Source of the DNA: Salegentibacter mishustinae
Lineage (GTDB): Bacteria; Bacteroidota; Bacteroidia; Flavobacteriales; Flavobacteriaceae
Assembly (NCBI RefSeq): GCF_002900095.1
Contig: NZ_LLKN01000001.1
Location: 186,001-250,000, forward strand
Length of the DNA stretch: 64,000 bases
Reading direction: 5' to 3'
Under the pieces are notes generated by a model. That model was not told the origin of the DNA, searched no databases, and worked only from the letters and a program-made list of their open reading frames with translations. Both the position numbers and the translations under genes were made by a program. Positions 26,850 to 39,866 of the stretch are shown here, in pieces; position 1 is the first letter of the stretch, and each line of letters starts with the position of its first letter.

Positions 26850-28343
26850 TTACTCCCAATCGGGCATAAATGCATTTTCGTACAATAAGGTTCGGTTCTC
26901 GTCCACACTACCAGGATTTATTTCTACCGTGTATATATTATTCTGAGAAATACCATCATTAGAAGTATTTACAAAAATAACTTCGGCTTCGTTTGGAGAA
27001 AACCTGGGGTCTAAATCGTTTGTTCCATCGGGTTTATTATCACTAATATTTAAAGCTTCCTGGGTGTTTATATTGTAAACAAATAATTGCGAGTTAAGCT
27101 GGCGATAATCTTCGCTTTCAAAACCGGAAACATCTCTTGCATATAATACCATATTATTATTAACCGAGAGGTTTAGGCCACCAAGTGCCCCATCTACATT
27201 TGAAACAACTGTACTTGTTTTCTGCCCTTCATTGTTTATTAAATAAATAGAAGCATTGTATCCATTAGCATCGTTTACCAATAGTGCCATCCTTGAATTA
27301 TCATTACTCACATCTACTTCTGTAATAAATTTGCCATTAGGCTCACTATAAATTTGCGTAGTACCATCACCGGTTGCATTTACTCTATAAAGTTTACTAA
27401 AATTCGGATAAACAAGGCTTGCACCATCATTGGCCCAGGAAAAATCAACTTTATCTAAATTGAAACCGTTCACAGGTATATTGCTGGTAATTTGTTTTTG
27501 GCCCGAGCCATCTAAATTCATCGTAAAAAGATGAGTTTGACTACCAATAGTTCTTAAAAATGCAATTTTATCGGTGCGATGATTTTTTCTAGGCCTAAAA
27601 CTATTATGATCTGCCGAGGTCAATTGATATTCATTTTCATTAAGATCACGAGAAAAAATTACGTTGTTACCGTTAATTTTCTTTACGTAAGCGATCCTAC
27701 TTTTAGGAAATTCTAGCGTACTAAAAGTATTCACTTCACTTAACACATCTTCGTTTACACTATCACTAACTCTTACCTGCCAAAAATATTTATAACCATA
27801 ATTTAGATCATCTACCGTATAAGTAGTGTCGGTTATATTAGAATATGTTTGTACATTATTATTACGGTCGTTTCTAATTTCTAATTGATAATTTAGATCG
27901 TCATCGTCCACATTTTCTGAAGTCCAGGTGAATGTGATATTTCGAGAAAGCCCTTCGCTATTATTTTCGGGAGAGACCAGCATTGGAGCTTTAGGAGCAA
28001 GGTTATTGGCCGTTTCGGGTTTCATTTCAAAAACTATATTCACCTCACCATCGGGAATTACCTCCACGCCCTGAAATTGAGTAAGTAAGCTATCTTTACG
28101 GGCCTGGACAGAGTACTCTGCAGCCGGTACATTTCTTAATTCAAATTCTCCATTTTCATCTGTAAACACTGTGGAGCTAGCAGGATTGGTTGAGATCCTA
28201 ACATTCTCTATGGGTTCAAAATTTCCTTCGGTTACTACTGTACCGGTAATAGTGCCAATTTGAACATTATCTATAGTTTCTTCACTACAACCCAAAACTA
28301 CTATCGCTAAAAAAAGCGTGAAAATATATTTTATGCTTTTCAT
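26850..28343 (-). CDS. curli-operon lipoprotein: carboxypeptidase-like, Fn3 and beta-propeller domains
   Basis: A 497-aa lipoprotein (Cys19 in V-L-G-C). Residues about 28-110 are a carboxypeptidase-regulatory-like beta-sandwich (G-T-V-V-T-E-G-N-F-E-P-I-E-N-V-R). Residues about 120-210 are fibronectin-III-like, ending W-Q-V-R-V-S-D-S. The rest is a TolB/PD40-type beta-propeller with repeats such as I-A-F-L-R and A-L-L-V-N-D, and a last blade F-S-P-N-E-A-E-V-I-F-V. It is the last gene of the curli export operon, five bases after csgG, so a role at the cell surface near the curli pore is inferred. I know of no named csg counterpart. Confidence 0.75.
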   Translation of the reverse strand: MKSIKYIFTLFLAIVVLGCSEETIDNVQIGTITGTVVTEGNFEPIENVRISTNPASSTVFTDENGEFELRNVPAAEYSVQARKDSLLTQFQGVEVIPDGEVNIVFEMKPETANNLAPKAPMLVSPENNSEGLSRNITFTWTSENVDDDDLNYQLEIRNDRNNNVQTYSNITDTTYTVDDLNYGYKYFWQVRVSDSVNEDVLSEVNTFSTLEFPKSRIAYVKKINGNNVIFSRDLNENEYQLTSADHNSFRPRKNHRTDKIAFLRTIGSQTHLFTMNLDGSGQKQITSNIPVNGFNLDKVDFSWANDGASLVYPNFSKLYRVNATGDGTTQIYSEPNGKFITEVDVSNDNSRMALLVNDANGYNASIYLINNEGQKTSTVVSNVDGALGGLNLSVNNNMVLYARDVSGFESEDYRQLNSQLFVYNINTQEALNISDNKPDGTNDLDPRFSPNEAEVIFVNTSNDGISQNNIYTVEINPGSVDENRTLLYENAFMPDWE

Positions 28344-28348
28344 AATTC

Positions 28349-29734
28349 TTAATTATTATTTTTAGAACCTCCTAAATAGAAATTTACGCCAATACCAAAA
28401 TTGAAATAATGGTCGTCTCTAGTTCCATTTATTGTATAATCTAATTCGTCACTAAGGGTAATATTATGTGTCCCAAAAGCTTTTATACCCAAATTATCTT
28501 TAATTAGATATTCCATTCCGAGACCATATTGAAACTTGAAAAAGTTATTTTTCGCATCAGGTACATCGGTTTCTGAAAGCCTGGTCAAAAATCCAGCACC
28601 GGCCTGAGCATATGGAGTCAATCTATCATTGGGTAATAAAGTATAGTTTAAGCCTGCATCAAGCCCTGCAAAGGTTTCGGCAAAAGCTTCTCCGCTATTT
28701 AACTCAAATACACTTCCACTTAACTGAAGGGCTAACGAGCGATAAATATCGTTTTTATAATCTATAGTTAATTGAGGTGCTAAATTATTATCAGAAAAAT
28801 CAGCACTTAATAAAGAGCCTCCTAAACTAACCCCTATGGCGCTACTGTATTTTCTTTCAAAATACTTTCTATTATAAAGTCCTGTTAACTCTTCTTCATC
28901 CTTATCACTTCTATACTCGGCAATTAGTTTTTGCGATGCCGCCTCCCCTTCTTTTGGAAGCCATATCTTGTCTTCTATACCTTCTACAATTAACCCCTCA
29001 ACAGCCTTCTCTATAGCTTCTTTTACAGCTATTTGTACAGGTTCATTTCTAGTGAAACCGGTTTCAGCTTCTAACAAGCGCTGAAAGCTCACATATTTAA
29101 ATAAACTTGCATCAAGAGCTTGAGAAAGGATAGTTTTAGAAATATATACGTTTTTTAAAATTTTACCGCTAGAAGTAGAAATAGCTCTTAAATAAATAGT
29201 CACTCTATCCTGTCTATATTGAGTAGAGGCGCCTACACCAAGGTAACGGGCACCTAAACCACCGGTCATAATATTGGTATCATAAGATACAATTCCACCT
29301 TCCAATAATATTCCTGCATATAATAGCGGTGGCAGTTGTGGTTCGTTACTATTTCCTCCCTGGTATTCCTGCCGGGTAGACCTAATAATATTTCTTTCGT
29401 TTAATAGATTTCCGATATTTTCTCTTTCAATAGCGGTAAACCAGCCTGAATCTTCCAGAGCTTTTACCAAAATGGAAGTGGCTCCCTGGGTTACTGCGGT
29501 ACTAAAAGTACTACCCACATCAGAAGGCTTATATTGTCCCGTAAGATCTCTAAAATTATAAACCCCTACCACCACTTTTTCTTCAGGGGCAGGCAATTTT
29601 CTTAGCCTTTTGGTCGTCTCCGATATTTCTCCTGCACGAGGAGCTTCAAAATCTACAGGCTGACTCAAATATGAGCCACAGGAAGTGGAAAGACATACCA
29701 ATACAGCCATGAACGATAATTTGTATAAATTCAT
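28349..29734 (-). CDS. csgG: CsgG-type curli secretion pore with C-terminal barrel extension
   Basis: A 461-aa outer-membrane lipoprotein (lipobox L-S-T-S-C, Cys19). Residues about 30-275 match CsgG, the nonameric pore that exports curlins. Marks include V-V-V-G-V-Y-N-F-R-D-L-T-G-Q-Y-K, G-A-T-S-I-L-V-K-A-L, and R-E-N-I-G-N-L-L-N-E-R. The region from about residue 300 is an extra outer-membrane beta-barrel-like domain (alternating strands, G-L-G-M-E-Y-L, final N-F-G-I-G-V-N-F-Y-L-G) absent from E. coli CsgG (277 aa). The gene follows csgF after six bases. Confidence 0.9.
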   Translation of the reverse strand: MNLYKLSFMAVLVCLSTSCGSYLSQPVDFEAPRAGEISETTKRLRKLPAPEEKVVVGVYNFRDLTGQYKPSDVGSTFSTAVTQGATSILVKALEDSGWFTAIERENIGNLLNERNIIRSTRQEYQGGNSNEPQLPPLLYAGILLEGGIVSYDTNIMTGGLGARYLGVGASTQYRQDRVTIYLRAISTSSGKILKNVYISKTILSQALDASLFKYVSFQRLLEAETGFTRNEPVQIAVKEAIEKAVEGLIVEGIEDKIWLPKEGEAASQKLIAEYRSDKDEEELTGLYNRKYFERKYSSAIGVSLGGSLLSADFSDNNLAPQLTIDYKNDIYRSLALQLSGSVFELNSGEAFAETFAGLDAGLNYTLLPNDRLTPYAQAGAGFLTRLSETDVPDAKNNFFKFQYGLGMEYLIKDNLGIKAFGTHNITLSDELDYTINGTRDDHYFNFGIGVNFYLGGSKNNN

Positions 29735-29740
29735 AGTTGC

Positions 29741-30148
29741 TTAATTTGGAATGATTACCTGGGTTTGTTCTCCTGTTTCTGTATCTAGAATATTTATTAC
29801 CAAACCTTCATTAGATGGGTAAATATCTACCGCCAAACTTCCAAAAGAATAGGTGCCTTCTTCAAGTGCTCCCTGCCCAAATTGATCGGTAAATAATCTT
29901 CTGGTAACCTGTCCTAATAATTGCGAATTTAAACTGGAAGTGAACCTTTCTAATTCTGATTGTTGCTCTCTTCCTGAAGTGGCATTGGGATCTTTAAAAC
30001 TATTTTGTGCCTCGGCCGAACTTAAAAGCCATTGATAGTTGTAAGGATTTCCTCCAAAAGCGGGGTTAGTAGGTCGATAAACTAAATCCTGGGCATTTGA
30101 TGTAAAAAAACACCCCAGAATAAAGATTAATGATAAAATTGGTTTCAT
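29741..30148 (-). CDS. csgF: curli assembly protein CsgF
   Basis: A 135-aa exported protein: signal peptide (about 1-19, ending S-N-A-Q), then the CsgF hallmark L-V-Y-R-P-T-N-P-A-F-G-G-N-P-Y-N. In E. coli this N-terminal stretch inserts in the CsgG pore and forms a second constriction. The C-terminal part (G-S-L-A-V-D-I-Y, L-V-I-N-I-L-D-T-E-T-G-E) is the helix-strand domain that helps position the nucleator. It lies between csgE and csgG with gaps of 15 and 6 bases. Confidence 0.93.
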   Translation of the reverse strand: MKPILSLIFILGCFFTSNAQDLVYRPTNPAFGGNPYNYQWLLSSAEAQNSFKDPNATSGREQQSELERFTSSLNSQLLGQVTRRLFTDQFGQGALEEGTYSFGSLAVDIYPSNEGLVINILDTETGEQTQVIIPN

Positions 30149-30163
30149 TTATAATAGTTTGGA

Positions 30164-30904
30164 TTAGTATTGCATAATTTGCTGTTTCTGTCTTCTCAAA
30201 TTCTGAAAATAACGGTTAACTCTTTGCAGGGCTACTCCAGCCATTTCTTCTAGATAATCCAGTTTTGGCCGGGAATAAAATTGAAATACTATTTGATTTT
30301 CAATCTTTACCATAATCTTTGTAGTTCGTCCAAAACTTATCATTTCGTCTATTTCAATTATTTTATTCTCTGGATTCTGACTTAACTGGTATTTTTGATA
30401 GAAGAAATCATAAAAATCTTTTCCGGGTTTGGTTTTTGTATTTTCAGTAACCAAACCATAAAGTTGAATACCTTCGTTGTCTTTTTTATAAGACAACTTT
30501 TCATTTTTAGCAGCCTGGCTCATAGGCTCGTATACCTTTCTGGCTGTACCAAGTAATTTATCTTCCTCATCATAGATAAGCAATAAGATAATGGTTTGCA
30601 TTTGTGGATTTATGGAAACAGAAGTAGTGGAAAGAGAACTGGTTTCATAAGGCTCTAAAGTAAAGAAGCCTGACTGTGCATTTTTTGATGAATTATTGGA
30701 AACTTTAGGATTGGAGGTAATCACAGATAATTCGTACCGTAGCCCATAACTCACATTAGTTTTATTTTGTGCTATTCCCGTAACCTCCAGAATATCGTTT
30801 TTATTATCGTTGGTATTAATGATTGCTTCTACCTCAGAATTAAAGTTTTGACCACACAAAAATGCAGGCATACATAAGCATATTATGCAAACAAAAACTT
30901 TCAT
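30164..30904 (-). CDS. csgE: CsgE fused to an N-terminal CsgH-like domain
   Basis: A 246-aa exported protein, about twice the length of E. coli CsgE. Residues 146-240 form the CsgE domain (D-F-Y-D-F-F-Y-Q-K-Y, I-E-I-D-E-M-x-S-F-G-R-T-T-K-I-x-V, Y-L-E-E-M-A), the periplasmic adaptor that caps CsgG. Residues about 23-125 align with the small CsgH-like protein at 35452-35841, sharing the nine residues L-R-Y-E-L-S-V-I-T (here 55-63), a following F-T-L, and a T-S-x-S-x-N-P segment. So the cap carries its own putative amyloid chaperone domain. It is in the operon between the minor curlin and csgF. Confidence 0.88.
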   Translation of the reverse strand: MKVFVCIICLCMPAFLCGQNFNSEVEAIINTNDNKNDILEVTGIAQNKTNVSYGLRYELSVITSNPKVSNNSSKNAQSGFFTLEPYETSSLSTTSVSINPQMQTIILLLIYDEEDKLLGTARKVYEPMSQAAKNEKLSYKKDNEGIQLYGLVTENTKTKPGKDFYDFFYQKYQLSQNPENKIIEIDEMISFGRTTKIMVKIENQIVFQFYSRPKLDYLEEMAGVALQRVNRYFQNLRRQKQQIMQY

Positions 30905-30915
30905 AAACTAAAAGC

Positions 30916-31407
30916 TTAATTAAAATTTCTCACCACTATAGTCCGGGATTCCCCCGTCATATTAAATTGTAAGTTATCTCCTATATCGTTAGACCCAAAT
31001 CGCTCAAAATGTAGGTTATTACCGGTTTGAGTAAGCTCAATTGAAGCAGCGGCATTGGTATTATATATTTGATCAAAAAAGTTATTGTTATTACCCTTTT
31101 GGCTTATAGTGCTTGTATAATCTTCAACATTTACTTTTATTCCAATATAATTAAAGTCCCCATTTTGATTATAGGAAACATTACTACTTTGAGATCTAAT
31201 AGTAGCATCTATATTATTCCCCTCTCCTACCTGCTGAATAAAAACTCTATTTTCATTTAAAGTTTTTGCTGAAGTAGTTTTTACCGGATCAAAGTTTTCC
31301 GAAAACATTTGCATTTCCAATAATGAAGACCTGGGAATATTTTCAATTTGAGAAAAAACCCCTAGCGTACAGAATAAAAATATAATATTTAGTATAGTTG
31401 TTTTCAT
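30916..31407 (-). CDS. CsgB-like minor curlin subunit 1
   Basis: A 163-aa exported curlin-like protein. The ATG at 31407 starts a good signal peptide (ends V-F-S-Q); an ATG at 31449 gives an implausible extension. After a roughly 40-residue unique segment come irregular curlin repeats (I-Q-Q-V-G-E-G-N, Y-N-Q-N-G-D-F-N, I-S-Q-K-G-N-N-N, L-T-Q-T-G-N-N-L). The C-terminus H-F-E-R-F-G ... T-G-E-S-R-T-I-V-V-R-N-F is shared with the other minor subunit at 35838-36362. Few repeats and a conserved end suggest a nucleator or cell-anchor role. It lies directly after a major curlin and before csgE. Confidence 0.82.
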   Translation of the reverse strand: MKTTILNIIFLFCTLGVFSQIENIPRSSLLEMQMFSENFDPVKTTSAKTLNENRVFIQQVGEGNNIDATIRSQSSNVSYNQNGDFNYIGIKVNVEDYTSTISQKGNNNNFFDQIYNTNAAASIELTQTGNNLHFERFGSNDIGDNLQFNMTGESRTIVVRNFN

Positions 31408-31427
31408 TTTCTTTATAAAAATATTAA

Positions 31428-31460
31428 AAAAAAGCGGCATGTTTAACATACCGCTCTTTT
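31428..31460 (-). other. intercistronic stem-loop between major and minor curlin genes
   Basis: AGCGG..ATGT and ACAT..CCGCT (31433-31455) form a stem followed on the minus strand by A/T-rich sequence, in the 65-base gap after the 300-aa curlin. It could partly terminate transcription or protect the upstream mRNA, making the major subunit more abundant than the export proteins. Confidence 0.6.
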
Positions 31461-31472
31461 TAATTTAAAATT

Positions 31473-32375
31473 TTAATTTGCAATCATTCCACTACCATTA
31501 CTTTGAAATACTGTAGAAGCATTTCGTCCTCCGGTTTGGAATACATCGCTATCGTGGTTGCTTCCAAATTGAGTAACCACAGAATCATGACCCCAACCGT
31601 TTTGCTCTACCATACTTAAGTTATCCATTCCAGACTGCATTACTAAAGATTCTTCGCCAGCTCCTTTTTGAAGATCATGAGCCTCGTTTCCAATCCCAAA
31701 TTGCATTTGTACAGAAACATGATTATTACCTTGCTGCTCTATCTTTGCATAGTTATCCTCACCCATTTGAACCTGTGCAGCTGTAGAATTATTAGTGCCA
31801 TTTCCATACTGAGATGCCTGATAGATATATGCTCCGTTATCTTCTCCAACCTGAACCTGGTAGCCTTCATTAGAACCTCCGGCTCCAAAATGGTTTTGGT
31901 TTAGCTGACCAAAGTTACCGGCACCTGACTGCATTTGTACGGCAAGGTTATCCCCCTGGTTTTGTACTACCACTCCCTGGTTACGATCTCCCATTTGCAT
32001 TTGGGATGATGTATTTTCCCAACCTCTTTGGAAAGTATTAGCTCGGTTATTATCCCCGTTTTGTTCCTGGGAAGCATCATGATCTGTACCTGCCTGATCA
32101 ATACGTGCATCATTCATCGCCCCATCTTGAGTTGCAACCGCAGCATTTGATGTGCCGGCCTGAAGGATCACCGCTATATTAGCATCACCTTCCTGATTTA
32201 TATCTGATGCATTATTTGTACCATCCTGGTCTGTAGTTGCATTGTTACTCATTCCTACCTGATTAACGATGGCTGAATTTAAATCACCATTTTGATCTAC
32301 ATCACTTTCGTTAGATTGCGCGAACATCGCAGCACTAATAGTTAAAGCACTTAAGCTTAAGATTAATTTTTTCAT
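31473..32375 (-). CDS. CsgA-like major curlin, 300 aa
   Basis: A 300-aa secreted curlin. The ATG at 32375 opens a signal peptide ending A-M-F-A-Q; three residues of the longer frame are dropped. The mature part holds about 20 Q-x-G motifs in a roughly 11-residue period (pattern x5-Q-x-G-x2-N), the beta-strand-turn repeat of functional amyloids. It is Met-rich compared with its paralogues (V-Q-M-Q-S-G, Q-M-Q-M-G-D, Q-M-Q-F-G). It is the first gene of the csg export operon reaching to 26850, and follows the 367-aa curlin after an 83-base gap with a hairpin. Confidence 0.88.
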   Translation of the reverse strand: MKKLILSLSALTISAAMFAQSNESDVDQNGDLNSAIVNQVGMSNNATTDQDGTNNASDINQEGDANIAVILQAGTSNAAVATQDGAMNDARIDQAGTDHDASQEQNGDNNRANTFQRGWENTSSQMQMGDRNQGVVVQNQGDNLAVQMQSGAGNFGQLNQNHFGAGGSNEGYQVQVGEDNGAYIYQASQYGNGTNNSTAAQVQMGEDNYAKIEQQGNNHVSVQMQFGIGNEAHDLQKGAGEESLVMQSGMDNLSMVEQNGWGHDSVVTQFGSNHDSDVFQTGGRNASTVFQSNGSGMIAN

Positions 32376-32412
32376 AATTGTCATTATTATTTTTTTTAAA
32401 ACTAATGTTCGA

Positions 32413-32458: not shown

Positions 32459-33562
32459 CTACATATCTTGAAATACAGATGCACTGTTATTATTACCTAC
32501 CTGATTGATGTCGCTATTATGCATATCTCCAACCTGGTCAGTGCTTGCTCCGTTAGATAATCCATTTTGTCTGTGCATTGCCCAGTTATTATCACCAAAC
32601 TGAGTTAGCACAGAAGTATTAAATCCTGCTCCAGCTCCTGTTTGAACGGTATTCGCATAGTTATCGTCACCCGTTTGTTCTTGTAAAGAAATATTACTAC
32701 TAAAATATTGTTGGGTATTAGCATAGTTACCATTTCCAGTTTGTACCTGGCGTGAGAAATTATTGTCATTCCCCTGGTAAGCATTCATTTCATTATCGTC
32801 ACCTTCTTGATACTGAATTGCGAATTGAGAATTTCCTCTTTGTGTAACTTTAGCGTAATTAGCTTCTCCGTATTGCTCCTGTTGTGCAAAACTATTTTGT
32901 GCACTTTGCCAACCAGTTAGAGCCTCACCTTGTTCAATTATTGCAGTATTATCTGTACCTAAATCTACAAGCGGATTCCCTTGAAATTGGAAAGCGGAAT
33001 TATCATCTCCCCACTGTTTAATATCTCCTGAATTACCGGATCCAATTTGTTGAACTTGAGCCCCATTTGAATTACCCTCCTGAAGAATTACCGAGGAATT
33101 TAATTCTCCATCCTGAAGCACACTGGCACCATTAAAGAAACCAATTTGATCAATATCAACTACGTTATTTGGCTCGGTTGAACCGGCATCACCCATTTGG
33201 GTTGCAGTTGCTGAATTTAAAACCCCAGTTTGATCTACGTTGGCCAAATGTGAAGACCCATCCTGGGTTACATCAGATGTATTAAGGTCTCCTGTTTGAT
33301 TAATGTATGCAATATTATCATCGTCTATTTGATTAAGAAAAGACTCGTTACTCACTCCAGACTGGTTAACCGTTGCTTCGTGATTTGCATTTTCACCACT
33401 GTCCCCACCTTCTTGAGTGATTTCTGAAAGGTTAGTTGCTCCAACCTGTGTAACAGCAGCAGAGTTGGCATTTCCGTTTTGATTTACATCGCTATCATTG
33501 TTTTGAGCGAATGTTACAGCACCACATAATAAAGCTGCTGTTCCTAAAATTACTTTTTTCAT
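32459..33562 (-). CDS. CsgA-like major curlin, 367 aa
   Basis: A 367-aa secreted curlin: signal peptide of 19-20 residues (ends T-F-A-Q), then about 23 Q-x-G-type motifs spaced 11 residues apart (for example V-T-Q-V-G-A-T-N, V-D-Q-T-G-V-L-N, I-N-Q-V-G-N-N-N). The start of the mature chain, N-N-D-S-D-V-N-Q-N-G, closely matches the 422-aa paralogue. Its upstream region is also duplicated there. It is expected to polymerise outside the cell into amyloid fibres once exported by CsgG. Confidence 0.88.
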   Translation of the reverse strand: MKKVILGTAALLCGAVTFAQNNDSDVNQNGNANSAAVTQVGATNLSEITQEGGDSGENANHEATVNQSGVSNESFLNQIDDDNIAYINQTGDLNTSDVTQDGSSHLANVDQTGVLNSATATQMGDAGSTEPNNVVDIDQIGFFNGASVLQDGELNSSVILQEGNSNGAQVQQIGSGNSGDIKQWGDDNSAFQFQGNPLVDLGTDNTAIIEQGEALTGWQSAQNSFAQQEQYGEANYAKVTQRGNSQFAIQYQEGDDNEMNAYQGNDNNFSRQVQTGNGNYANTQQYFSSNISLQEQTGDDNYANTVQTGAGAGFNTSVLTQFGDNNWAMHRQNGLSNGASTDQVGDMHNSDINQVGNNNSASVFQDM

Positions 33563-33902: not shown

Positions 33903-35171
33903 CTAGTTGCTTTGAGTAACTACAGAACTATTATTATTTCCAATCTGGTTTACAGTACTCATATGATTTGCGCCAGTTTGAGTAGAAGAACTCATATTCA
34001 TATCACCAATTTGTTCAGAAAATGCGGTATTACCCATTCCATCCTGGAAAATAGTTGCAGAGTTACCATCACCTTCGATGATAACACCATCATTTTTATA
34101 CCAAGCAGTACCAACCATATTACCATTACCCAATTGATCAACATCAATAGTGTTATTTGATCCAGCGATTCTACCTGTAGCTGTATTTTGATTACCGTCT
34201 ACTTTTACATTTAGAATATTTCCATTAGCAGAAGGCTCCCAACCATCAGAATTATCAGCGATTGACCAATCACCTTTATTTTGATCTCCGTCTGTATCGA
34301 TGTCCACATCATTATTATCACCGTTTACACCAACACGATTTAAATTACCATTACCAAAGTGATTCGCATCAATATCATTATTATCCCCTCCTTTTACTCT
34401 GGCTTCCATTCTATTACCATTACCTTCCTGATATATCGTAATATCATTATCATCTGAGAAATAAGAATTTCCCGATTTTGTAGCGTTGGCAACAGCCGTA
34501 TTTAAATCTCCAATCTGGTCAACATCTACCATATTACGATCCCCTTCAATTGTCTGATAAGAATTATTCATACCACCAACCTGGTCTGTATAATTTTCAT
34601 TAAGATCACCTGTTACAGTGACAATAGAAGAATTCATACCTCCTAAACCTCTAACCGGACCGTATCTCTGATTTGTTTTAGCCACGTTATTATCTCCAGT
34701 TTGGTAAATAATAGATGAGTTATCATCACTAAAAGTTACCGTTGATCTGGCAGTGTTACCATCACCTAATTGATCAATCATACTTCCGTTACGGCTACCA
34801 ATTTGCTTTACATAAGCATCATTATCGTTTCCTACTGAAGTTGTAGTTATTATATTGTCTTCTCCGTCTTGAGATCTTGCGAAAGAAACATTGTCGTTCC
34901 CGGTTTGAACAATTGTTGCCAGGTTACGCTTCACTTTGAAAGGTTGAGAACCAGCTTGCTCTATTACCGATTCATTAATTACACCAGATTGAGTAGCGTT
35001 AGCTTCGTTTTCAGTACCGTTTTGAAGAACATCAGAATCGTTGCTGGTACCAGTTTGTGTAACTGCCGCGGAATTTGAATTTCCAATTTGATGAACATCG
35101 CTGTCATTACTTTGTGCGAATACTACAGCACCACATAATAAAGCCGCTGTTCCTAAAATTACTTTTTTCAT
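33903..35171 (-). CDS. CsgA-like curlin, 422 aa, Asp-rich
   Basis: A 422-aa secreted curlin. The start is the ATG at 35171, giving a signal peptide nearly identical to that of the 367-aa curlin (M-K-K-V-I-L-G-T-A-A-L-L-C-G-A-V); the frame is open 41 codons further without export logic. About 18 Q-x-G motifs are present. The central part departs from the pattern: Gln is often replaced and Asp/Asn dominate (N-D-V-D-I-D-T-D-G-D-Q-N, W-S-I-A-D-N-S-D-G-W). It ends with canonical repeats. A specialised fibre subunit or a calcium-sensitive segment is possible but unproven. Confidence 0.85.
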   Translation of the reverse strand: MKKVILGTAALLCGAVVFAQSNDSDVHQIGNSNSAAVTQTGTSNDSDVLQNGTENEANATQSGVINESVIEQAGSQPFKVKRNLATIVQTGNDNVSFARSQDGEDNIITTTSVGNDNDAYVKQIGSRNGSMIDQLGDGNTARSTVTFSDDNSSIIYQTGDNNVAKTNQRYGPVRGLGGMNSSIVTVTGDLNENYTDQVGGMNNSYQTIEGDRNMVDVDQIGDLNTAVANATKSGNSYFSDDNDITIYQEGNGNRMEARVKGGDNNDIDANHFGNGNLNRVGVNGDNNDVDIDTDGDQNKGDWSIADNSDGWEPSANGNILNVKVDGNQNTATGRIAGSNNTIDVDQLGNGNMVGTAWYKNDGVIIEGDGNSATIFQDGMGNTAFSEQIGDMNMSSSTQTGANHMSTVNQIGNNNSSVVTQSN

Positions 35172-35211
35172 TTTTAAAGAATTTGATAAAATTAATAAAT
35201 AAAGATTGTTA

Positions 35212-35230
35212 CGCATTATTTTAATGCGTT
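35212..35230 (-). other. 5'-leader stem-loop of the 422-aa curlin
   Basis: ACGCAT and ATGCGT form a short stem about 40 bases before the start codon. A comparable stem lies about 40 bases before the 367-aa curlin (33602-33621). Confidence 0.5.
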
Positions 35231-35231
35231 G

Positions 35232-35376
35232 AGTAAAACTTGCAAGTAATTTTGGGGCAGTGAGTGGGAAGAAGTAGGGTTTTCCCTTACACACTGCTAA
35301 TCTATATTATTTTTTAGCTGTATTGTAAAGTTTTCGACAGGGCACGAAAAAAATCGTTATTCCGATATTTTTTAAC
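35232..35376 (-). promoter_or_regulatory. conserved curlin upstream block, copy B
   Basis: Second copy of the block at 33625-33770: GGGGCAG (35254), GGGAAGAAGTAGGGTT, GTTTTCGACAG (35330) and ATCGTTATTCCGAT (35353). It lies upstream of the 422-aa curlin. Conservation over about 145 bases outside the coding sequence suggests duplication of a gene with its control region, or selection on shared regulator sites. Confidence 0.7.
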
Positions 35377-35393
35377 TTAAAACATATAAAAAA

Positions 35394-35425
35394 CAAAAAA
35401 AGTCCAGGTTAAGACCTGGACTTTT
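35394..35425 (-). terminator. terminator after the CsgH-like gene
   Basis: AGTCCAGGT (35401-35409) pairs with ACCTGGACT (35414-35422). The A-run on the left becomes a T-run for minus-strand transcripts ending after the CsgH-like gene. Confidence 0.85.
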
Positions 35426-35451: not shown

Positions 35452-35841
35452 TTAGAATTGAAAATTCAGGGAATCTCGGGCTACCACTTTATCACTATTA
35501 AAAATATAGAGTTTGATTATGGTGTTATTGCCAGGGTTATGGGAAATAGAAGTATTAGATAATATTTTGATAGCTGAAGCGGGAAGTGTAAAATTACCCA
35601 ATTGTTTATTTTGGGAAGAATTGCTGTTGTTTTTATTTCCGGTAATTACCGAAAGTTCATAACGCAACTTGTATGCTTGCGAAGTATTATTTATTGCCTG
35701 GCCTGAAATATTTAATAACCTATTTTTGGCTTCCAGGTTTATTTTTGCTTCAATATTATTCTTTTTGCCATCCTGACCAAAAGCAGCACTAAAACAAAAA
35801 AGTAATAAAAATAAGGCCGGGATGTTTAAACAATTTCTCAT
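35452..35841 (-). CDS. CsgH-like curli chaperone
   Basis: A 129-aa exported protein (signal peptide about 1-23, ending F-G-Q) with one beta-sandwich-like domain. It resembles CsgH, the periplasmic protein that keeps curlin unfolded in alphaproteobacteria, where it replaces CsgC. It shares L-R-Y-E-L-S-V-I-T (residues 59-67), G-N-F-T-L and a T-S-I-S-x-N-P segment with the N-terminal domain of the local CsgE. It overlaps the upstream minor curlin gene by four bases (ATGA), tying it to curlin biogenesis. CsgH assignment is by fold-pattern and context. Confidence 0.7.
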   Translation of the reverse strand: MRNCLNIPALFLLLFCFSAAFGQDGKKNNIEAKINLEAKNRLLNISGQAINNTSQAYKLRYELSVITGNKNNSNSSQNKQLGNFTLPASAIKILSNTSISHNPGNNTIIKLYIFNSDKVVARDSLNFQF

Positions 35842-36362
35842 TGAAAATTTCTTATAATTATAGATCTGGTCTCCCCGGTTTGTATAATTTTTAAATTGTT
35901 ACTTATAGAATTAGCGCCGTATCTTTCAAAATGAAGGTTATCGCCTTGCTGTAATAAATCAGCTGAAACATCCTGATCTGGATTAACTGTAAAATCGAAA
36001 GATTTATTATTATTACCATCCTGGATAATCGTGCCGTCTATATTTTGCGCATCGGTTATAAAGGAAATATAATTCCCATCACCATATTGTAATAATTTTA
36101 AATCGCTATTCTGAGAAGATGTCCTTGCATTAACATTGTTTTGCGAACCTATTTGCTCTATAAATATTTGATTACCAGAAGGTGATGCATTTCCGACTTC
36201 AGGTTTTTCAGAATTTAAGGTTAAAGAACTTAATCCAACAAAGTTTCCAAATTCCCTCTTTTCCGCTAAAACTTTTTCTTCAGTTAGGGTAGCTGGATTT
36301 TGGGAAAATGAAAAATTTCCGCAAAACAGTAATAGGATTAAGATATAACTGGCATATTTCAT
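35838..36362 (-). CDS. CsgB-like minor curlin subunit 2
   Basis: A 174-aa exported curlin-like protein: signal peptide to about S-F-S-Q (residue 21), a unique roughly 45-residue N-terminal part, then a few curlin repeats (I-E-Q-I-G-S-Q-N-N, L-Q-Y-G-D-G-N, I-Q-D-G-N-N-N). The shared minor-subunit ending is H-F-E-R-Y-G ... Q-T-G-E-T-R-S-I-I-I-R-N-F. It is paralogous to 30916-31407. It follows the 311-aa curlin after a stem-loop and is coupled to the CsgH-like gene, so this is a second, export-less curlin operon. Confidence 0.82.
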   Translation of the reverse strand: MKYASYILILLLFCGNFSFSQNPATLTEEKVLAEKREFGNFVGLSSLTLNSEKPEVGNASPSGNQIFIEQIGSQNNVNARTSSQNSDLKLLQYGDGNYISFITDAQNIDGTIIQDGNNNKSFDFTVNPDQDVSADLLQQGDNLHFERYGANSISNNLKIIQTGETRSIIIRNFQ

Positions 36363-36450: not shown

Positions 36451-37386
36451 TTAGTTAGATTGAGTTATTGTACCAGAATTTTGACTACCATGTTGAGTTA
36501 GTGTACTAACATTGCCCGCTCCAGTATTATCGGTTTGTATTACCCTCGCGGTGTTATCGGCATTTCCATAAAATCCAATAGCTGCATCATCCTGAGTGAT
36601 AAAAGATCTGTTGTTATCACCAGTTTGCGTAACATTGGCATAGTTACTATAACCTGTCCAAACATTATTGAGATTACCTGACTGTGTTACTCTAGAAAGG
36701 TTATCTTCACCAATTTGTGATAATTTAGAATAATTATGATTATCATCTTGATCTACATATTCACGGTTACTCAAAGGACCTGCTCCCTGATCTCTAGTTT
36801 CTTGATAACTAATTGCGGTGTTATCATTACCATCTTGATTTATCTGGGAATAGTTGCCTCGTGAATGGTTAGGTCTTGCAGCCTGTTCCAAATTCACATA
36901 GTTACCATCTCCTAATTGGTCAATATCCGCGACATTATTGTCCCATCTTTGTAATACACGAGATCTATTATCGTTGCCATCTTGCTTAATATTAGCCTTG
37001 TTATCCTCTGCCTTGGCATTGTTACCCTGTTGTAACCAGGAGTTGTTTCTATTTCCATCCTGTTCCACATTTGCATTGTTACGGTCTCCTCCCTGTTCTA
37101 CATAGGAAACCTGATCATGCCCGGCTTGATCTACTATAGCGCGATTAGAATCACCACTTGTAGGACTATTGTCCCCATGTTGATCCACAGTAGATTTATT
37201 CTTCCCTACCTGGTCAATAATAGCCGTGTTATCTGTAAACTCCTGATCTACTTTACTGTTATTGTTCCCTGTTTGAGTAATAGTTGCAGTGTTACCGGAG
37301 CCTGTTTGTGTGCCGGTACTGGTGTTCTGTGCAAATCCAATTGCTCCAAACATTAGCGCTGCTGCGCAAAAAATCGCTTTTTTCAT
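36451..37386 (-). CDS. CsgA-like major curlin, 311 aa
   Basis: A 311-aa secreted curlin. The ATG at 37386 opens a signal peptide ending G-F-A-Q, close to that of the 368-aa curlin; an upstream ATG adds ten unlikely residues. About 14 Q-x-G motifs are recognisable; repeats are richer in Arg/Asn than in its paralogues (N-N-R-S-R-V, D-G-N-R-N-N-S-W). It heads a three-gene unit: this curlin, a CsgB-like minor subunit, a CsgH-like protein. Confidence 0.86.
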   Translation of the reverse strand: MKKAIFCAAALMFGAIGFAQNTSTGTQTGSGNTATITQTGNNNSKVDQEFTDNTAIIDQVGKNKSTVDQHGDNSPTSGDSNRAIVDQAGHDQVSYVEQGGDRNNANVEQDGNRNNSWLQQGNNAKAEDNKANIKQDGNDNRSRVLQRWDNNVADIDQLGDGNYVNLEQAARPNHSRGNYSQINQDGNDNTAISYQETRDQGAGPLSNREYVDQDDNHNYSKLSQIGEDNLSRVTQSGNLNNVWTGYSNYANVTQTGDNNRSFITQDDAAIGFYGNADNTARVIQTDNTGAGNVSTLTQHGSQNSGTITQSN

Positions 37387-37764
37387 AATAAATAAATTTA
37401 GATTAGTATTAAACATTAATAAATTACGTACTCAGCGGGGGGAATTAATATTTCGCGGGAATAGAGCAAGACTTAAAAGCCTAACTATATTAATTAGCTA
37501 AAGGGTGTAAGGATAAAATGTTTAGGGAATGTACCTAGAACTTAAAATCACAAGGGAATGATTTCCTTCTTAGCACATTGCTAAAGTATATAATTTTTTA
37601 AATCAAAAATTCATTTTTTATATATTTTCGATGAAATACAAGTAGGAAAATTCACATATTCGCAAAAAAATCAATAAATTTAATATCCAGAGAGGGATTC
37701 TATAAACATGGATATTTTTGGACTAGGGAAATCCCCTAAAGAGTATTCTTACATTATATAAAAC

Positions 37765-37898: not shown

Positions 37899-39005
37899 TT
37901 AATTCTGGGTTACGTTCGCATTATTCCCGTTTCCAATTTGATCTACAGTACTCATATTTCCATTACCCGATTGATAAACCGTATGTATGTTATAATCACC
38001 ATCTTGTAATAATGTTGAGGAATGTTGGCCACCGGTTTGGTAAACATCACTATTATTCCAATCTCCTAATTGCTCAACTTTAGAATAGTGTCCAAATCCA
38101 TTTTGAAGGCTTGCACTTATGTTATGGTCTCCTTCCTGGATCACGTGTGATTTCTGGCTAGCACCTTTTTGAAAATCATCTGCCCAGTTACTGTCTCCAA
38201 CCTGGTCCTGGAGTGCAAAATGGCCACTGCCCTCTTGCCTAACAGAAGCTTCGTTATAATCTCCAATTTGAGTCTGGGAAGCTTCGTTATAGTAACTACC
38301 TAAGTTGAGGCTACCTTGCGGGTATTGCCCCGCTTGTACAATACTGGCTTCGTTCTCATCCCCAGCCTGAAAAATATTGGCATAATTTTCTGTACCACCG
38401 GCTGGATTAATATTCGCCTGTTCTATACGTGCATCGTTTTCATGACCACGTTGCTCAACAAATGAAACATTTAGAGTATTATCCTGAATAACTAAAGAGT
38501 TATTCTCTCTTCCCCTTTGTTTAACATATGCCTCATTATTTGGCTCAATACTACCTGCATCACCAGATTGTATTACAGAGGACATATTTCCATTTCCCCT
38601 TTGGGAAACATCAGCAAGGTTGGAAGAACCTATTTGATAAACATCACTATCATTATTTTTTCCCCTTTGTGATACCACCGCAATATTATCGTCATCCAGT
38701 TGCTCGACCATCGAGTTATGGTTTTCACCTCTTTGGGTTACTGTAGCTCTGTTGTTCTCGTTTTCTCCGTCTCTACCATCAAATTGTTTTACTGTAGACG
38801 TACTGGAACCTTTTTGATCAATAATTGCATTGTTAGAGTAAGCTAGATTGCTAGCTACTCCTTGTAGTACAGTCGAAGTATTGGAACCTACCTGATTAAT
38901 AGAAGCAGAGTTGTCATTCCCTTCCTGATCTACATCACTGGTATTCTGGGCAAAAGCAACTGCCCCAAACATTAGCGCTGTTGCGCAAAAAATCGCTTTT
39001 TTCAT
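37899..39005 (-). CDS. CsgA-like major curlin, 368 aa
   Basis: A 368-aa secreted curlin. The ATG at 39005 gives the signal peptide M-K-K-A-I-F-C-A-T-A-L-M-F-G-A-V-A-F-A-Q; a further 17 upstream codons lack export logic. About 23 Q-x-G motifs follow (V-D-Q-E-G-N-D-N, V-S-Q-R-G-K-N-N, V-Y-Q-I-G-S-S-N, V-D-Q-I-G-N-G-N), several with Arg after Gln. It is monocistronic, with its own long upstream region and two downstream stem-loops. Confidence 0.88.
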   Translation of the reverse strand: MKKAIFCATALMFGAVAFAQNTSDVDQEGNDNSASINQVGSNTSTVLQGVASNLAYSNNAIIDQKGSSTSTVKQFDGRDGENENNRATVTQRGENHNSMVEQLDDDNIAVVSQRGKNNDSDVYQIGSSNLADVSQRGNGNMSSVIQSGDAGSIEPNNEAYVKQRGRENNSLVIQDNTLNVSFVEQRGHENDARIEQANINPAGGTENYANIFQAGDENEASIVQAGQYPQGSLNLGSYYNEASQTQIGDYNEASVRQEGSGHFALQDQVGDSNWADDFQKGASQKSHVIQEGDHNISASLQNGFGHYSKVEQLGDWNNSDVYQTGGQHSSTLLQDGDYNIHTVYQSGNGNMSTVDQIGNGNNANVTQN

Positions 39006-39866
39006 AATAATAAATATTAAATGGTTAAAAAATTGATTAATTAAATTCTCTTTCAACTTAAGTTTGGGGCAGGATTTGTTGTGCCAAAAGACACATTAAA
39101 CACACACTATTCTAAATGAATGTCTAATTAAAAGGGGCTAAAAAATAGGGATATAAAATGTAGGTTATAGAGAATTATCGAGGCCGTGGGGGTGACAATT
39201 CTAACGCTAAAATAGAGGGTTTTCACCCAAGAAATTATTTTTTTCGATAAATAGCTGCATTTTTTGATGAACAGCGAAATACGCAATATTTAAGGGAAAA
39301 CCCTCTAAAACTATTAGTATTTTCATTTACTTTGAAAGAATTATCTTACTTTTTGAACAATATATAAATCATCCCTGTATGTGGATAATTAAGCACTAGT
39401 TCCCACAAATACAGGTCTAACTTTAATTCTGAAAAGAAAATTTAAGAAATCTAACTTTTAAAAAGACAGCAAGAGCAATCTTTAAAAAGTTCAATTAATC
39501 GATATTGTGAGAACCACAAAATTGAATATTAATAAATTGTACAATTCAAGTAAAAACAGATAATTCCACTACAAATAGCTCAAAATCAATTTGTTAAAAA
39601 CTCATTAGTGAAATTAAAAAACGAGATAAAATTCCTGTGCTTTTATTCAACTAAACAAAAAATCCCAAAAAAGAATAGATAAGAAATACCTTACAAAATC
39701 CAAAGTTCAAACCTTTATACCTTAGTCTAACTTGCCATCACTTTGAGCGCTATAAACCAATTAATAACTTGAGAATTAAAAATTTGATACAGCGCTTCAG
39801 TTTTAATAAAACAAAAAACCACGTGTATTATACACGTGGTTTTTTATACTTATTTAATTCAACGAA
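39006..39866. other. 861-base intergenic region upstream of the curlin locus
   Basis: AT-rich. The part nearest the 368-aa curlin carries the element TTTGGGGCAG (39063-39072), shared with copy B at 35251, and two AGGGTTTTC/AAGGGAAAACCCT-type motifs (about 39214 and 39291). The distal part has a terminator for glutamine synthetase. No gene or RNA is recognised between about 39320 and 39810. Confidence 0.65.
39813..39846 (-). terminator. terminator after glutamine synthetase III
   Basis: AACCACGTGTA pairs with TACACGTGGTT (within 39813-39845) around a three-base loop, with A and T runs on either side. It lies about 20 bases after the glnN stop and can work in both directions. Confidence 0.9.

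Follow-up and report, generated by a model that had tools for sequence, protein, structure and literature searches.

Among the described curli chaperones, three stand closest to the gene reported here: CsgH (R. palustris, PDB 2N59; NCBIfam NF041112), CsgC, which in E. coli (PDB 2XSK/2Y2T) is a separate protein according to the accessible part of PMC3521004, and CsgE of E. coli, solved as a chain without an extra domain (PDB 2NA4). A published sorting rule assigns proteins with a distant cysteine pair to CsgH and those with a CxC motif to CsgC, and Bacteroidetes are described as possessing CsgH sub-families (both in the available portion of PMC4838910). Here we analysed a window of 64,000 nucleotides from Salegentibacter mishustinae (contig NZ_LLKN01000001.1, positions 186,001 to 250,000). 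Results showed that its csgE gene (30164..30904, minus strand; 246 residues), recognized by sequence, BLASTP and profile matches, encodes a CsgE domain which, unlike the solved E. coli chain, is preceded by an immunoglobulin-like (Ig) domain of the CsgC/CsgH type, as judged by sequence and predicted fold. We interpret the product as a two-domain periplasmic curli chaperone; the full explanation, comprising tethering at the secretion gate, a free form of CsgH and slippage in relatives, appears to us probable, with considerable room for doubt. No title among the matches listed in our literature searches, whose scope excluded supplements, reported a CsgE-CsgH fusion or slippage in csgE. The words "fusion" and "fused" are absent from the accessible parts of PMC3521004, PMC4838910 and PMC5135000, and neither curli nor CsgE is mentioned in those of PMC3711429 and PMC5009743.

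The fused protein can be divided into four segments, all encoded on the minus strand. A signal peptide (residues 1-19; 30848..30904) was assigned by eye from a hydrophobic N-terminus reaching CGQ, and the structural model places a helix at residues 2-16. It is followed by the CsgH-like seven-stranded Ig domain (residues 20-128; 30521..30847), whose strands fall within residues 25-125 of the model, and by a linker (residues 129-148; 30461..30520) where the predicted local distance difference test score drops below 50 at residues 130-144. The CsgE domain (residues 149-241; 30182..30460) matches Pfam CsgE (PF10627) with E 3.6e-13 and 50.1 bits, above the curated cut-off of 25, and this part of the protein has the CsgE fold. 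The csgE product shares 85% identity with one from Salegentibacter salinarum. A preliminary description of this DNA had proposed that an extra N-terminal domain is joined to CsgE at this position, and the profile matches to both domains bear it out.

That description had also related the N-terminal half to a protein of 129 residues encoded separately in the same locus (35452..35841, minus strand). In agreement with this, the stretch LRYELSVIT is identical in both products, and BLASTP aligned them with 45 of 108 residues identical (42% over 108 residues; E 1e-13). When the signal peptides were removed, the local alignment score was 175, whereas 1000 shuffles gave at most 76 (z 21.8). The two proteins also matched the CsgH profile NF041112, over residues 34-102 of the fused protein (E 3.6e-7, 30.1 bits) and residues 33-121 of the stand-alone one (E 6.5e-8, 32.5 bits), both scores falling below the curated cut-off of 35 bits. 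Three of the eight proteins scanned exceeded this cut-off, all of them relatives: a fused protein (L146, 44.2 bits), a stand-alone one (L045, 39.0 bits) and one from a split gene (L145, 35.6 bits); another split-gene product (L144) scored 34.4 bits, below it. At E ≤0.1, the CsgH profile matched 24 of the 31 aligned family proteins and the CsgC profile 9 of 31, and a profile built from fused domains alone matched solved CsgC with E 0.0011, S-x3-Q-x5-L-x-A-N positions being shared in the profile alignment. Weak matches to PhoQ and gp120 profiles were read as chance.

Structure comparisons pointed in the same direction. Foldseek searches of the PDB returned CsgC (2xsk) first and CsgH (2n59) second for the model of the fused protein, and the same two entries in reverse order for that of the stand-alone protein; generic Ig domains tied in one fold comparison, despite CsgC and CsgH being the nearest solved folds. 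A difference between the two predicted folds, or a lack of likeness of both to CsgH/CsgC, was looked for on the models and not found. Both genes lie next to curlin genes, a further likeness to CsgH. Taken together, sequence profiles and predicted fold support the domain identity given in the preliminary description, the anti-amyloid activity suggested there being a proposal.

That the fusion might be an event special to this genome was considered as well, and this did not hold. In a draw of 149 genomes from the family, 31 carried CsgE, and its frame was 238-280 residues long in all 31; a locus was available for 30 of them, and all 30 aligned within the extra domain. A fusion newly arisen in this genome was rejected on these grounds. 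The family alignment was also the source of the profile used in later domain searches. Draws at class and phylum level revealed fused or split genes in Flavobacteriaceae and also in another family of Flavobacteriales (L146-L148), and the domain profile matched none of 26 CsgE genes inspected outside the order, a count that covers inspected loci, draw rows without a locus being left out. A set of 80 loci, the best 80 of 368 relatives of the fused query, gave fused frames in 84 of 84 cases, which reflects how the set was chosen and is not a survey. In the family draw the CsgH-CsgE fusion is the rule, and it looks standard in Flavobacteriaceae.

Other arrangements were seen along the way. Three loci (L056, L098 and L109) hold two fused csgE genes within 18 kb, each of which is preceded by a curlin-like gene of its own. 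Two of the 26 genes from outside the order, both from another family (L033 and L037), have an N-terminal part that is Ig-like by eye and matched nothing in either library. In some other Bacteroidota CsgE has a different N-terminal partner, a LysM domain: of 18 such loci 13 were represented in the scan, and 8 of the 13 proteins passed the LysM cut-off (L125, L128, L129, L130, L136, L137, L138 and L139), L131 lying narrowly below it.

The stand-alone csgH-like gene, identified by BLASTP, NF041112, its model and Foldseek, overlaps with its start a curlin-like gene of 174 residues (35838..36362, minus strand). This neighbour is a paralogue (38% identity, E 4e-32) of the 177-residue CsgB-like gene directly upstream of csgE (30916..31449, minus strand; a weak Curlin_rpt match below cut-off), a homologue of which precedes fused csgE in 84 of 84 cases of the best-relatives set. 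Inspection by eye of the region downstream of the stand-alone gene revealed no CsgE-like open reading frame (ORF); a terminator-like hairpin with a T-run (35395..35425, minus strand) stands there instead, just after the gene. The fused-domain profile found two places in the genome, the fused and the stand-alone gene, a third row at E 0.87 being taken as noise. Within the genus the domain occurs in 8 of 15 genomes, and two of these eight have a second, stand-alone copy. In the phylogenetic tree the two known stand-alone copies grouped together as a single clade, set on a long branch amid the fused domains; this tree rests on few columns, carries a long-branch warning and includes no proteobacterial CsgH, so that it does not fix the branching point. 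The nesting of both copies among fused domains does not support the stand-alone gene as the ancestor. Because it shares with csgE the kind of upstream neighbour that itself precedes all 84 fused csgE genes, the stand-alone gene is probably a derived copy that arose when the segment was duplicated and its CsgE half lost. In S. salinarum (L045:2100-2760) the curlin-like partner could be traced by eye only as broken frames, and the stand-alone csgH is open.

A different arrangement was found in the genus labelled g127, which we take to be Flavobacterium because the genus is large (299 genomes) and F. endophyticum (L107) is among its tree rows. CsgE was present in 72 of the 299 genomes, with frames of 241-275 residues in 37 and of 112-129 residues in 35. 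None of the 72 CsgE matches contained a stop, in a search that reads through stops. Together with L145 from the phylum draw, the 35 short genes made up a set of 36 split genes (L144, L145, L149-L164, L166-L171, L173, L175 and L178-L187). In every one of them a CsgH-like ORF lies upstream of the CsgE frame and the split falls at the domain boundary, in the position of the linker of the window protein. The junction is a run of exactly ten A's, always in the same phase, with CsgE at offset 2 (the -1 frame) and a G after the run (36 of 36); the CsgH frame terminates 0 to 10 codons beyond. Twelve genomes with split genes were among 18 of the genus checked for further copies of the domain, and each of the 18 had one.

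Both halves of the split genes are under purifying selection. For pairs with a synonymous rate (dS) of 0.2-1.5, the median ratio of nonsynonymous to synonymous rates (dN/dS) was 0.102 in the CsgH half (maximum 0.45; 147 pairs) and 0.096 in the CsgE half (maximum 0.42; 204 pairs). A long A-run thus joins two conserved frames in 36 of 36 genes, which is the pattern of programmed slippage. We therefore propose that split genes may yield both free CsgH and a CsgH-CsgE protein through slippage on the A10 run, as the sequences suggest. The closest parallel is tssM1 of Citrobacter rodentium, where an A11 tract leads to a short and a full-length product of one gene by transcriptional slippage, both being reported as needed in the accessible part of PMC4256274; tssM1 is a type VI secretion gene, whereas the tract described here belongs to a curli gene, where it marks the border between two domains, and the slip is a proposal from the sequence.

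We judge it very unlikely that the split genes are simply two independent genes or are decaying into pseudogenes, and that the A10 run arose by accident, the linker being rich in lysine and the genomes in A. Such an accident would fit the use of AAA for 83% of lysine codons outside the run, the A-runs also carried by linkers of other genera (16 of 36 runs of at least eight), the concentration of most split genes in one clade, and a possible start codon (ATG, GTG or TTG) in frame before the CsgE domain in 8 of 36 genes. It is at odds with the invariant A10-G junction and with the codons of the run, which keep their third base (one row being gap-shifted), as do only 2 of 31 other comparable lysine/glutamate/glutamine-rich columns. 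The other 28 of 36 genes lack any start codon in frame ahead of the CsgE domain, and none of 11 CsgE frame starts inspected among the 36 has a hydrophobic signal; like the purifying selection on CsgE, the lack of such a signal speaks against independent genes. A separate origin in L187 does so too: in the tree, 35 split genes and 5 single-frame genes together form a clade of 40, L187 stands apart, and the split state needs three changes, at least two of them forced by branches with support of at least 95. The five single-frame genes of that clade have A10 (L174, L188 and L107), A11 (L176) or no run that long (L200). Among 114 distinct fused genes, which come almost entirely from other genera, there are five A10 runs, and all five are located in the linker, a segment that accounts for 10.7% of the gene. 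Across 185 kb of split-gene loci there are eight further A/T runs of at least ten. The window csgE is itself in a single frame and is not among the genes with an A-run of at least eight.

A variant that overlaps with our explanation has the ribosome shift by -1 at A AAA AAG in place of slippage by RNA polymerase. We regard it as a serious possibility, tentatively the lesser one. In its favour, AAG closes the run in 36 of 36 genes, so that this heptamer is present in the zero frame. In contrast, a search for a conserved stem-loop downstream of the A10 run found none (consensus energy about -0.16); structure downstream of the run was weakly different from that in single-frame controls, with a mean z of -1.64 (13 of 36 below -2) compared to -1.04 (9 of 37). 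In addition, the run has a single synonymous site beyond the heptamer, the third position of its Glu/Gln codon, and this is A in all 36, and frameshifting at prfB is reported to be low in F. johnsoniae (PMC12421855, in its available portion). Because there is no conserved RNA structure, the synonymous site is invariant and prfB frameshifting is poor in F. johnsoniae, slippage by RNA polymerase is mildly favoured.

Several properties of the domain weigh against CsgC-style inhibition as its activity. It has no cysteine in any of 31 sequences and lacks both the CsgH pair and the CxC motif of CsgC. The fused domain of the window is acidic, with an isoelectric point (pI) of 4.55, and in this departs from the rules reported for CsgC/CsgH. 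The domains of the split genes are acidic as well (median pI 4.88; 0 of 36 above 7), and those of single-frame genes are mixed (pI above 7 in 15 of 37 within g127 and in 12 of 42 elsewhere). The stand-alone protein has pI 9.93 after its signal peptide, compared to 4.05-4.46 for the curlins of the window, and both known stand-alone copies exceed 7. Given its missing cysteines and acidic pI, the tethered domain may serve to hold curlin or to position it, and not to inhibit it in the manner of CsgC. The same two features of the window protein would suit an anchor or adaptor that positions CsgE relative to CsgG, CsgF, a curlin partner or the cell wall, its anti-amyloid activity lost or never present, and LysM on CsgE in other Bacteroidota (8 of 13 scanned) indicates that N-terminal additions may serve positioning. 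We nevertheless consider a pure anchor unlikely, since sequence profiles indicate CsgC/CsgH over a generic Ig domain and a free form, which an anchor would not need, is encoded in the window's genome and apparently by the split genes. The two-domain chaperone, found fused in the inspected Flavobacteriales, therefore remains our preferred reading.

The curli locus of the window lies on the minus strand, with csgG, csgF and curlin-repeat genes adjoining csgE. Its order is curlin-repeat genes, the 174-residue curlin-like gene with the stand-alone gene, further curlins, the 177-residue curlin-like gene, csgE, csgF and csgG. Five curlin-repeat fibre subunits were recognized by their repeat pattern by eye, all on the minus strand: 37899..39056 (pI 4.29), 36451..37416 (pI 4.46), 33903..35294 (pI 4.21; the start of this ORF is probably too early), 32459..33562 (pI 4.05) and 31473..32384 (pI 4.05). 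Downstream of csgE lie csgF (29741..30148, minus strand; PF10614, E 3.5e-45) and a csgG whose product has an additional outer-membrane barrel domain at its C-terminus (28349..29734, minus strand; PF03783, E 9.1e-68, and PF13505, E 3.6e-8). Barrel part and CsgG stand within one ORF in 81 of 81 loci of the best-relatives set, window included. A lipoprotein-like gene with a carboxypeptidase-regulatory-like domain (26850-28343) directly follows csgG.

From these observations a working model can be drawn. The CsgE part would dock under the CsgG pore and cap it as in E. coli, so that several CsgH domains would hang at the periplasmic mouth of CsgG, where they would keep the acidic curlin chains unfolded and pass them to the pore. 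Some lineages would also require free CsgH, a step that is better supported than the arrangement at the pore mouth: the main argument for it is that two lineages converge here, one having a duplicate gene and the other a candidate slippage site. In the window's genome free CsgH would come from the truncated duplicate, and in many Flavobacterium-like species from the same gene, through slippage on the conserved A10 run at the domain boundary. We see an even chance that flavobacteria balance free and gate-tethered amyloid chaperone in this way, by A10 slippage in much of Flavobacterium and by csgE duplication and truncation in the lineage of the window.

The novelty lies more in the family-wide architecture and the conserved A10 junction than in the single gene. 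The fusion joins two curli chaperones that the literature consulted treats as separate proteins, and bears on how unfolded curlin is handed over to CsgG. If the slip is confirmed, the split genes would be an example of recoding by which the proportions of free and tethered chaperone are set, and they risk being annotated as pseudogenes or as bare CsgE without a signal peptide. If the model is true, functional amyloid export would be subject to control through the balance between free and tethered CsgH.
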